A DNA stretch of 64,000 nucleotides from Bacteroidia bacterium (GTDB lineage Bacteria > Bacteroidota > Bacteroidia > Chitinophagales > Saprospiraceae), in NCBI GenBank assembly GCA_030430845.1, contig JAUIKE010000012.1, positions 1 to 64,000 of the forward strand, written 5' to 3'. This document shows positions 5,425 through 62,665 of this stretch, piece by piece. Position 1 is the first letter of the stretch. Each line of letters starts with the position of its first letter. The notes beneath the pieces were generated by a model. That model made no database searches, was not told the DNA's origin, and saw only the letters and a list, made by a program, of their open reading frames with translations. The position numbers were made by a program, and so were the translations under genes.

Positions 5425-5856
5425 ATGAAAATTCAGGAATCAGACTTAGAAACGGTGGTAGCGCTCAGCCTGCAAATACCTGAGATGGAAAACCCCTATC
5501 CCATCGAAGAATATCAAAAACGCCTGTATGACACAGCACACTTGATCCTCGTAGCGTTTGTGAATGAACAAGCGGTTGGTTTCAAAGTAGGTTATGAGCG
5601 AAGGGATCATTTCTATTCCTGGATGGGGGGTGTATTACCGGATTTTCGGCGCCAGGGGGTAGCCCAGGCTTTAGCCGACTATCAAGAAAATTGGGCGAAA
5701 AACCATGGGCATACAACCATTCAATTCAAAACACGCAACTATTTAAAGGGAATGTTGATCTTCGCACTGCAAAATGGTTTTCAAATCATAGATGTAGAAA
5801 GCCGACCCGACATACGAAATAACCGAATTTTATTAAGTAAACAATTAAACGAATAA
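5425..5856 (+). CDS. GNAT family N-acetyltransferase
   Basis: GGVLPDFRRQGVAQAL acetyl-CoA binding motif. Confidence 0.85.
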   Translation: MKIQESDLETVVALSLQIPEMENPYPIEEYQKRLYDTAHLILVAFVNEQAVGFKVGYERRDHFYSWMGGVLPDFRRQGVAQALADYQENWAKNHGHTTIQFKTRNYLKGMLIFALQNGFQIIDVESRPDIRNNRILLSKQLNE

Positions 5857-8803: not shown

Positions 8804-8935
8804 CGCTAGTGACCTGGTGACTTGGAGTCACCAGGTCACTAGCGACTTTTGCCTGGCCCTCACAAAGTTACTGCAAATTACCATAGCTTGCCAAAGCCTT
8901 GTCCGCTTTTGTCCGCTTTTGTCCGCTTTTGCAAA
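8804..8935 (-). repeat. composite intergenic element copy 1 (hairpin + TAACTTTG + CGGACAAAAG decamers), minus orientation
   Basis: Perfect 19-bp stem CGCTAGTGACCTGGTGACT/AGTCACCAGGTCACTAGCG, CAAAGTTA at 8863, three TGTCCGCTTT decamers at 8900-8929. Confidence 0.9.
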
Positions 8936-16882: not shown

Positions 16883-17009
16883 TGCAAAAGCGGACAATTT
16901 CGGACAAAAGCGGACAGATATTAGCGGTTGACCGGATTTGGGGGTAACTTTGCAGGGCGGAAAAAAGTCGTTAGTGACCTGGTGACTTGGAGTCACCAGG
17001 TCACTAACG
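16883..17009 (+). repeat. composite intergenic element copy 2
   Basis: GCGGACAATTTCGGACAAAAGCGGACA, TAACTTTG at 16945, 19-bp stem CGTTAGTGACC.../...GGTCACTAACG at 16969-17009. Confidence 0.9.
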
Positions 17010-26038: not shown

Positions 26039-26091
26039 AAAAAGTAGGGGTTTTTTGAAAAACTTTGTTTTTCAAAAAACCCCTACTTTTT
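26039..26091. terminator. bidirectional terminator, perfect 25-bp stem
   Basis: AAAAAGTAGGGGTTTTTTGAAAAAC TTT GTTTTTCAAAAAACCCCTACTTTTT between convergent genes. Confidence 0.85.
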
Positions 26092-27240: not shown

Positions 27241-29571
27241 ATGCGGCTGTCTCATTCAATCAGAAAAATTTTCCAAAATATGAAATTAGGGCCAAGGGCA
27301 ATATCTCTTTCGATTTTTGGTGTCTTGTCTATTGTTAGTTTATTCTTTGTATTCCAGTTGAAGTTTTCATTCAGCTTTGAGCAGTTTTTTCCCAAAGGAG
27401 ACAAAGATCTGGATTTTTTCAAAGCGTTCATGGAGGAATTTGAGGCTGACGATAACTTCCTGCTTGTGGCCGTTCGTCATGAGGGAGGGGTGTTTGAACA
27501 GGACTTTCTCAAAAAGGTACATGAATTCACCCTTCAGTCCAGGCAATTGCCCCATGTTTTGGAAAGTCAGTCACTGACAAAGCTGGGGTATCCTATCAAA
27601 ACACCTTTTGCGGTCACCAGCATTCCAGTCATTCACATTGACGATCCCGGCCGCTATGAGAGCGATAAAAAAAGGCTCTTTCAAGATGAACGCTTCATTC
27701 ATAATTTTATTTCGGAGGATGAGGAAACGCTGGTCGTTTTTCTAAAGACGGTCAGTAGCATAACTTTTGAGCAGGCCCGCGAATTATTGGAGGGTTTGAA
27801 TGGTTTAGTAGAAAAATTTGAGTTCGAAGAATATCACTATTTGGGCCGTCCTTATTTCCAGGTGGAATTAGTGGATATGCAAAAAAGAGAAGTCATTTTC
27901 TCCGCTGTCATATCTTTTATCCTGGTGACCCTGATCATGTATTTGATATTTAGAAAACCTTGGGGCATTGCCATTTCACTGGTTTCCATCGCCCTGGGGA
28001 TGCTGTTGTTTTTGGGATACATGGGTGCCTTCGGCCGGGAGTTAAATGCCATGTCGGCCCTATATCCGATCATCATGATCATGGTGGGCACTTCGGATGT
28101 GATTCACATCATGACAAAATACATCGATGAACTCCGGAAAGGAAAAGCTCGAAAACAGGCCGCCATCATCACCGTCAAAGAAATTGGCCTGGCTACCTTG
28201 CTCACCTCGGTTACCACCGCCATCGGCTTTGCTTCCCTGCTGACCAGCCGGATCGGCCCCATACAGGACCTTGGGGTCAATGCAGCGGTGGGTGTAATGA
28301 TTGCCTATGTCACAGTGATCGGCTTCACCGTCGTCATGCTCTCAGGCTTTCGCGTAGATCAATTGATCAAACTAGGTAAAGGACAAGCTTTTTGGGACCG
28401 GAGCATGCTTTGGAGCTATCGCTTGACACGCAACTATCCACGAAGGATTGCGGCAGGAGGAATGTTCGTTTTTGCCTTATGTATACTGGGAATTTCCTGG
28501 GTGACAACAAACTACAACATCAAGAGCAATTTGCCCAGAAATTCCAAAATCACAGATGATTTCAACTTTTTCGAAAAACATTTAACGGGCTTTCGCCCGG
28601 TAGAATTCGCCGTCTTCCCACAGGGGGAGTATAAAGCCACCGACTTTGAAGTGGTTCGAGAAATTGGAAAGGTAGAAGAAAAACTAAAAGAAATAGAAGG
28701 GATCCGGGCCGTTAATTCCATCACTGCCGTTTACAAATCCATCAATCAGATGTTCGGAGGAAATCGACCGGAGGCATACGAATTACCGGAATCCAAGGAA
28801 CAATTCGCACGCTACCAGCGGCTGGTCAGTCAAGTGCCTATGGCGCAGGCCAATGTGCTGGTTAACCAGGACGGAAGCAAGGCCAGGATTACTTCCCGGA
28901 TTTTTGATATTGGGGCAGATAGCGTCAAGCAACGGGTTAATCAGGTACAACAATGGGCCAAAATGAATGTCGATACCAATGTCATCAATATTCAGCAAAC
29001 CGGTACCGCCCTGATCATCGACAAGAATGCGCAGTATGTTCGGGAGGACTTGGTAGAAGGCCTGGGGATGGCTATTCTGATTGTGAGTATTCTTATGGCT
29101 TTGCTGTATCAGAATATAAAAATGCTGTTGATCTCTTTGATCCCGAATGTGTTTCCGCTTCTAATGGCCGGGGCCCTGTTAGGTTTTCTCAACATCGAGC
29201 TGGAAGCCGGTATTTCCATTGTTTTTGCAGCTATATTTGGTATAGCGGTCGATGACACCATTCATTTTTTGAGTAAATACAAACTGGCGATCAATAAGGG
29301 GAAAAGTACGGAAGAAGCGCTGCAGATCACCTTCGCAGAAAGTGGGAAGGCCATTGTGCTGACCACCCTCATTTTGTTTGTCGGCTTTCTGGTGATGCTG
29401 TTCTCTCAAAATCCAGCCAGCTTCACGGTTGGTTTGCTCATTAGTGTGACCCTATTCGGGGCGATGATCAGTGATTTGATGCTGATTCCGTTGTTTATCC
29501 GGAAGTTTATGCCTACGGAAGAAAAAAAAGAAGAAACAGTAAGCCTGAAACCAATAGAAATAAATGTATGA
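27241..29571 (+). CDS. RND superfamily / MMPL-type transporter
   Basis: Two 6-TM repeats with large periplasmic loop; GTSDVIHIMTKY and GIAVDDTIHFLSKY motifs. Confidence 0.9.
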   Translation: MRLSHSIRKIFQNMKLGPRAISLSIFGVLSIVSLFFVFQLKFSFSFEQFFPKGDKDLDFFKAFMEEFEADDNFLLVAVRHEGGVFEQDFLKKVHEFTLQSRQLPHVLESQSLTKLGYPIKTPFAVTSIPVIHIDDPGRYESDKKRLFQDERFIHNFISEDEETLVVFLKTVSSITFEQARELLEGLNGLVEKFEFEEYHYLGRPYFQVELVDMQKREVIFSAVISFILVTLIMYLIFRKPWGIAISLVSIALGMLLFLGYMGAFGRELNAMSALYPIIMIMVGTSDVIHIMTKYIDELRKGKARKQAAIITVKEIGLATLLTSVTTAIGFASLLTSRIGPIQDLGVNAAVGVMIAYVTVIGFTVVMLSGFRVDQLIKLGKGQAFWDRSMLWSYRLTRNYPRRIAAGGMFVFALCILGISWVTTNYNIKSNLPRNSKITDDFNFFEKHLTGFRPVEFAVFPQGEYKATDFEVVREIGKVEEKLKEIEGIRAVNSITAVYKSINQMFGGNRPEAYELPESKEQFARYQRLVSQVPMAQANVLVNQDGSKARITSRIFDIGADSVKQRVNQVQQWAKMNVDTNVINIQQTGTALIIDKNAQYVREDLVEGLGMAILIVSILMALLYQNIKMLLISLIPNVFPLLMAGALLGFLNIELEAGISIVFAAIFGIAVDDTIHFLSKYKLAINKGKSTEEALQITFAESGKAIVLTTLILFVGFLVMLFSQNPASFTVGLLISVTLFGAMISDLMLIPLFIRKFMPTEEKKEETVSLKPIEINV

Positions 29572-29613
29572 TAGAAGCGGCCCTGGCCGCTTCTATCATA
29601 CATTTATTTCTAT
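29554..29613. terminator. bidirectional hairpin, 29-bp perfect arms, overlapping the 3' ends of both convergent CDSs
   Basis: ATAGAAATAAATGTATGATAGAAGCGGCC CT GGCCGCTTCTATCATACATTTATTTCTAT. Confidence 0.85.
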
Positions 29614-30237
29614 CTTCTCAAAGATCTCATCTAACTCATCATAAGACTTATATCCTACTTTTTCTTCCTCTCCACCTTTCACATTAATGCCTAGAGGCTT
29701 CAGCTCTTCGAGAATTTCGTCAATGTTACTTTCGTCAAAATTGAGGCTCAAGAGTATGGGATGCTCCTGCATCAGTTCCTTCAATTCATCCAATAAATTT
29801 TGCTGAATAAAGGCCCAATCTATCCCGTTTTTATCAAAATTGAGGATAAAAACCTCAACCAGGTCGGCATTTTGGTCAAAAACAGGGCGAAGGCTATCCA
29901 GAGAGGTATCTTTTTCGACCACTATTTCCTGCATGACGGGCAGTAGTTCGCTGATAGATTTCAAAGTATTGTAATCGGTGAATGGCCCTACCTGAAGCTG
30001 TTCGATTTCCAGGACCTCCATAGCGGACTTGACCGTTTCCAGATCCGGCAGATTAAATTCGCCCACGATTTTCACACCATCCACCCACTCTTTAATGGCT
30101 TTCATATTTTTGGGCTCGATGTAATCTTCGCTGCCGGCCTCCAGGTTAAACCCCAGCCATTCGACTTCCCAGGCGGCGAAGTAGCGGGCATCGGTCAGGT
30201 TGGTAATGGAACTGGCCTTAACTTTCGTTTTTAGCAT
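29596..30237 (-). CDS. phosphoribosylanthranilate isomerase-like (TrpF-like) TIM-barrel protein
   Basis: KVKASSITNLTDARYFAAWEVEWLGFN resembles TrpF N-terminus. Confidence 0.65.
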   Translation of the reverse strand: MLKTKVKASSITNLTDARYFAAWEVEWLGFNLEAGSEDYIEPKNMKAIKEWVDGVKIVGEFNLPDLETVKSAMEVLEIEQLQVGPFTDYNTLKSISELLPVMQEIVVEKDTSLDSLRPVFDQNADLVEVFILNFDKNGIDWAFIQQNLLDELKELMQEHPILLSLNFDESNIDEILEELKPLGINVKGGEEEKVGYKSYDELDEIFEKIEINV

Positions 30238-30286
30238 AATGATTAGTTTTCAGGATGCAAAAAAACGAAATTTTGGTCACAAATTT

Positions 30287-30452
30287 AGACATGTCATGTT
30301 TAAACATGACATGTCTGGGCCATTTCGACACGTCTTATCCACAAAAACTTGATTATCAATAGGTATGAACGTTGAAAAGGACATGACATGTTTAAGACAT
30401 GTCATGTCCTTTGAATCCAAACATGTCATATCTAGATATGACATGTTTGGAT
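30287..30452. repeat. cluster of three large palindromes sharing ACATGTCAT/ATGACATGT
   Basis: 30287-30316 AGACATGTCATGTTTAAACATGACATGTCT; 30376-30412 AAAGGACATGACATGT ttaag ACATGTCATGTCCTTT; 30415-30452 ATCCAAACATGTCATATCTAGATATGACATGTTTGGAT. Confidence 0.9.
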
Positions 30453-31284: not shown

Positions 31285-31438
31285 GGTTGTCTCATCCGCC
31301 TGAGGAAGATTCGACGCCCCATAGAATTTTTTTTGAGAGGTGTTTTTTATAAGGAAAAACGAAGTTTTTCCTTATAAAAAACACCTCTCAAAAAAATATT
31401 ATTGGCTGGCGAACCCGCGTCAGGCGGATGAGACAACC
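31285..31438. repeat. nested inverted repeat: 19-bp outer arms around a 33-bp perfect hairpin
   Basis: Outer GGTTGTCTCATCCGCCTGA (31285) / TCAGGCGGATGAGACAACC (31420); inner arms 31328-31360 and 31364-31396. Confidence 0.85.
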
Positions 31439-62554: not shown

Positions 62555-62665
62555 ATCGGACAAAAGCGGACAAGCACTCAGATAGCTGGCGATTTTGGGC
62601 TACCTTTGTACTGGAAAATAAAGTCGCTAGTGACCTGGTGACTTGGAGTCACCAGGTCACTAGCG
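62555..62665 (+). repeat. composite intergenic element copy 3
   Basis: CGGACAAAAGCGGACA, TACCTTTG at 62601-62608, perfect 19-bp stem 62625-62665. Confidence 0.9.

Follow-up and report, generated by a model that had tools for sequence, protein, structure and literature searches.

This locus raises the question of how two unrelated proteins, encoded by convergent genes, came to end in the same five residues. The window analyzed here is a 64,000-nt stretch of a draft genome that is placed near Saprospiraceae/Phaeodactylibacter by its relatives. Within it, the ORF of an MMPL/RND-family membrane protein ends in KPIEINV and that of a TrpF-like protein in EKIEINV, each directly followed by the stop codon, and both ends fall into one palindrome. 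The features of the region are as follows.

27241-29571, plus strand: MMPL/RND-family membrane protein gene, the putative acceptor (ORF; Pfam PF03176, 2.3e-39; variable orthologue tails)
29596-30237, minus strand: TrpF-like (PRAI) gene, the putative donor, with the family-typical C-terminus ...DELDEIFEKIEINV (ORF; Pfam PF00697, 2e-8; orthologue tails)
29554-29582, plus strand: left arm of the palindrome, in which 29554-29571 is the IEINV-stop of the MMPL gene and the presumed copy (repeat match; absent in the sister species)
29583-29584, no strand: 2-nt loop, CT (sequence)
29585-29613, minus strand: right arm, in which 29596-29613 is the IEINV-stop of the TrpF-like gene and the presumed template (sequence; TAGAAAT retained in the sister species)
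29560-29607, no strand: terminator-like hairpin in both directions (terminator scan and folding with flanks)
26039-26091, no strand: 25-bp perfect palindrome of the convergent pair M36 peptidase (plus) and OmpA-family protein (minus) (palindrome search)

The palindrome covers 60 bp (29554-29613). Its arms of 29 nt each are 100% complementary with 0 mismatches, which confirms the perfect inverted repeat with a 2-nt loop reported in the preliminary description; the Pfam matches likewise agree with the gene identities proposed there. As had also been noted, the last five codons and the stop of both genes lie inside the repeat. The final 18 nt (ATAGAAATAAATGTATGA) are common to both ORFs, IEINV-stop is encoded twice, and the codons of the two tails are identical at every base. 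The peptides are identical because codons inside the palindrome recur on the opposite strand, where the facing gene reads them in the same phase. The match is therefore a by-product of symmetry at the DNA level, and selection on the peptide need not be invoked. A length of 29 bp is not unique here, since further perfect palindromes of 33 and 25 bp are found nearby in the same window. One stop of its convergent pair is covered by the 25-bp palindrome, which starts just past the other.

The two tails differ in their relation to those of their orthologues. TrpF-like proteins of more than 40 relatives, mostly with no MMPL gene seen adjacent, follow the C-terminal pattern ...KSFDELDEIFEALEILV before the stop, with variations, and orthologues without an MMPL neighbour have ends such as FEALEILV, FEAIEILV, or FEELEVLV. 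The end found in the window (...KSYDELDEIFEKIEINV) fits this family pattern. Alignment of the MMPL orthologues holds up to about residue 754-772 of 776, beyond which they stop or continue into unrelated tails, some of them stopping directly after IRWLMK; an IEINV-like end was found in none of the approximately 30 inspected. In the window protein, the region past about residue 757 is such a variable tail. Comparing orthologues had been proposed in the preliminary description: forms close to IEINV (LEILV, AIEILV) occur in TrpF-like orthologues whatever the neighbour and never in MMPL orthologues, so that the ending is not carried independently by both families.

The sister species (G001), in which trpF is 75% and the MMPL gene 78% identical, has kept the convergent pair. 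Its two genes overlap by 49 nt, a palindrome is absent from their junction, and the MMPL tail (...RISNFSKISSNSS) is an antisense reading through the trpF end. The convergent pair is also present in G092 and, with overlapping stops, in G010. Compared to the sister species, the trpF side of the window keeps TAGAAAT, nothing corresponds to the MMPL side, and the distance from the trpF stop to conserved MMPL sequence is ∼55 nt longer. This nearest comparison involves the only other species of the genus among the genomes compared, at 75-78% protein identity. Judged by these alignments, it is the MMPL tail that is derived, the TrpF-like gene having kept its native end. The copy was most likely made from trpF to the MMPL gene, because the trpF tail is native, the MMPL tail is non-native, and the MMPL side has no counterpart in the sister species. 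A product of template switching is expected to have one ancestral and one derived arm, here the trpF and the MMPL arm, respectively, and to be a perfect inverted copy of adjoining sequence with a short loop, as is found at this locus.

The hairpin at 29560-29607 has a G+C-rich core between an A-rich 5' arm and a T-rich 3' arm. With the flanks included in the fold, its minimum free energies were -45.5 kcal/mol on the plus strand and -54.8 kcal/mol on the minus strand (z ∼-10 on both strands), and a terminator scan found it on both strands, with the sequence features of a bidirectional terminator. Palindromes at convergent gaps generally have T-rich 3' arms (0.49 T, 0.21 A) and GC-rich cores. 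A bidirectional intrinsic terminator would thus be the natural reading of the palindrome. Here, the GC-rich core is accompanied by only a weak T-tract, which counts against our best explanation. Moreover, both stops lie within ∼12 nt of the loop, and a ribosome at the stop would therefore cover the 5' arm. Termination at this hairpin would then require that transcription outpace translation.

Most simply, the inverted copy originated by a template-switch (quasipalindrome-type) mutation at a terminator-like hairpin. In E. coli, quasipalindromes are made perfect by template switching (PMC7202029), a process also put forward as a source of RNA hairpins and as a means of their upkeep (PMC8794818). 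We regard it as likely that the 60-bp palindrome is a bidirectional hairpin of the intrinsic-terminator type and that its MMPL-side outer arm is an inverted copy of the trpF-like 3' end, made by such a switch. During replication, the growing strand probably stalls at the small GC-rich hairpin (GCGGCC-CT-GGCCGC). It would then switch to the nascent or sister strand, copy back across the trpF stop and the last five codons, and return to its own template. The inverted copy would fall into the unconstrained MMPL tail in matching phase (one chance in three), so that both the final residues IEINV and the stop of the MMPL gene would stem from the copy. The hairpin probably ends both transcripts and is probably retained for that. 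Of the two causes offered in the preliminary description, hairpin-templated repair or gene conversion fits these data, and the direction from trpF to MMPL can now be added. The other, an override of coding constraint by terminator structure, is unnecessary: no constraint is visible on the MMPL tail, and the TrpF arm kept its native conserved tail.

The locus is not an isolated case. Our census covered 942 kb of the focal genome (G000), a 9.1-Mb draft in 396 contigs, and 250 kb of E. coli K-12; because genes were called simply as longest ORFs and the samples used for comparison are small, single counts given below may shift. The focal genome contains 167 perfect palindromes per Mb with arms of at least 13 and 80 with arms of at least 20. 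The respective densities are 87 and 35 in the sister species, 30-110 and 10 in two other genomes of the family, and 20 and 0 in E. coli K-12. Markov-simulated controls (30-280 kb per genome set) contained no perfect palindrome with arms of at least 13. Among 103 convergent gaps shorter than 400 nt in the focal genome, 45% have a perfect stem of at least 13 bp and 33% one of at least 18 bp, compared to 25% and 16% in the sister species and 0% at both thresholds in E. coli; stems of at least 18 bp occur in 0-4% of the convergent gaps of the other family samples. Convergent pairs carry 0.43 palindromes per pair (48 for 111 pairs) and pairs in other orientations 0.16-0.19. Both stops lie inside a palindrome in 16 of the 103 convergent pairs, at equal depth in 11, which by extrapolation from 942 kb would give on the order of 150 such pairs in the whole genome.

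A search for other convergent pairs with identical ends, also proposed earlier, found three more in the 942 kb, with 9-10 terminal nt in common: an HTH protein and pyruvate carboxylase (LE-stop), an RY-stop pair, and a KK-stop pair. At least 9 terminal nt are thus common to four convergent pairs versus 0.08 expected by random re-pairing, and at least two terminal residues to six pairs versus 0.6 expected. With five residues and 18 nt in common, the MMPL/trpF pair lies at the far end of this distribution. Chance is excluded as the origin of its palindrome and shared tail, because simulated sequence lacks arms of at least 13 and because so few pairs are expected by re-pairing. In the second pair, pyruvate carboxylase (...DDLVIELE) carries its own family tail (VVELE), and the tail of the facing HTH protein varies among relatives and is here LE, within an 18-bp palindrome. 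This pair points the same way, with the conserved tail as the probable donor. The direction of copying rests on these two pairs only, in the second over a short stretch. In the pair on contig C174, the match possibly extends by one more codon (Asn, AAT/AAC) past a single mismatch, which is too short to count.

Most stems are free of mismatches, namely 65 of 72 single-copy stems of at least 18 bp and 23 of 28 with arms of at least 26; the latter figure is the fairer one, as the search favoured perfect stems, short ones above all. In addition, one orthologous convergent pair (...YYK/...VKKQ) has a perfect palindrome in each of the two species, and the arm sequences are unrelated between the species beyond the common stop. 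Both observations suit arm copying better than slow compensatory substitution, and neither proves it. Taken together, we infer a template-switch event, terminator function, and ongoing correction of the arms. More tentatively, and at somewhat less than even odds in our judgment, the genus may have an unusually active arm-copying process that keeps making and perfecting palindromes at gene ends and repeatedly rewrites C-termini from convergent neighbours throughout the genome.

Selection on terminator structure alone, by which point and compensatory mutations build a long stem and both coding tails are forced to conform, would account for the enrichment of palindromes at convergent 3' ends and their resemblance to bidirectional terminators, which are under stronger constraint between convergent genes in Bacillus cereus (PMC5381666). 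We nevertheless consider it unlikely, since most long stems are perfect, those at unidirectional positions included, and the TrpF tail, being native, made no adjustment to the structure. A stem of 29 bp is also far beyond the needs of termination; intrinsic terminators need far shorter stems. Repeated point mutation with compensatory selection formally still stands as an alternative to a copying event.

A mobile or dispersed hairpin element inserted between the genes could by chance have supplied both stops. Dispersed hairpin repeats do exist in this genome, where 30 of 102 long stems belong to repeat families, and the longer MMPL/trpF gap would fit an insertion as well. But the palindrome is single-copy in the 9.1-Mb assembly at E ≤ 0.001, and its trpF half has homologous counterparts in the native trpF ends of relatives; we therefore rejected this explanation as very improbable. 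A fold-back chimera from sequencing or assembly, conceivable in a draft of several hundred contigs, is more improbable still: the palindromes prefer convergent gene ends and terminate near stop codons, and the separately assembled sister genome has the same tendency. Finally, the five identical residues might act as a functional signal that is under selection in both proteins. This candidate was rejected, and we give it the least credence, since the MMPL orthologues inspected lack IEINV, the match extends to every base of the codons, and the other pairs end in different residues (RY, KK, LE).

Other repeats were noticed besides the palindrome at the MMPL/trpF junction. A dispersed hairpin repeat with the core GTGACCTGGTGACTTGGAGTCACCAGGTCAC occurs in the window at 8804-8844, 16969-17009, and 62625-62665, and on contig C272 of the focal genome at 5736-5790. 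At 8804, the convergent gap measures 229 nt versus 6 nt in the sister species, and this copy therefore looks inserted. A family of palindromes with arms of 27-33 bp and the core GAAAAAC-(TTC/GAA/AAA/TTT)-GTTTTTC sits between genes, as at 31328-31396 of the window, and at contig ends (e.g., L123, 1-57); the assembly probably broke there because of it. Immediately upstream of the TrpF-like gene, at 30285-30452, overlapping palindromes of ACATGACATGT/ACATGTCATGT form a cluster of possible regulator binding sites. The hairpin core CTCATCCGCCTNAGGCGGATGAG recurs at unrelated loci of both species (focal genome, C174 60602-60654 and C272 26383-26443; sister species, C104 85095-85147). Loss of SbcCD as the cause of the palindrome build-up was unsupported: the sister species has an intact SbcD gene, and the focal genome also encodes SbcD, its two halves lying on separate contigs. 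The halves (C339, 117-509; C318, 6135-6524) reflect either an assembly break or an interruption.

These results suggest that a terminator-type palindrome can carry coding sequence from the end of a gene into the convergent gene facing it, which would be a route for unrelated proteins to acquire common C-termini. The locus alone is moderately interesting, the lineage-wide pattern more so. With its abundance of long, nearly mismatch-free stems, the lineage lends itself naturally to asking whether it is selection or DNA-level copying between arms that preserves perfect hairpins, and why ribosomes that terminate inside the stem do not block hairpin formation. In the literature searched, which mostly did not include subscription papers, we found no report of convergent bacterial genes with C-termini made identical by a common palindrome nothing on palindromes common to the stops of such genes, and nothing for this bacterial family; a paper on runaway transcription (PMC13323073) contained nothing on this phylum.

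Among known systems, template switching at quasipalindromes in E. coli (PMC7202029) and in the origin of RNA hairpins (PMC8794818) likewise yields perfect repeats from imperfect or absent ones in one step, one arm being copied from the other. In contrast to these cases, the copy described here runs across a stop and five codons, so that a second gene acquires a new C-terminus, the palindromes occur genome-wide at gene ends, and the event is deduced from comparison. Bidirectional intrinsic terminators (PMC5381666) also lie between convergent genes and have a GC-rich core, the 5' arm being A-rich and the 3' arm T-rich, whereas the putative terminator stems found here are perfect over 18-35 bp and reach in some cases into both coding sequences. 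In Nematomorpha, mitochondrial genes contain long, nearly mismatch-free inverted repeats in coding sequence, which have been suggested to persist by template switching or conversion (PMC6649704). Those palindromes lie within single mitochondrial genes and both of their arms encode conserved residues, whereas here one palindrome is common to two gene ends and only one arm holds a conserved tail.
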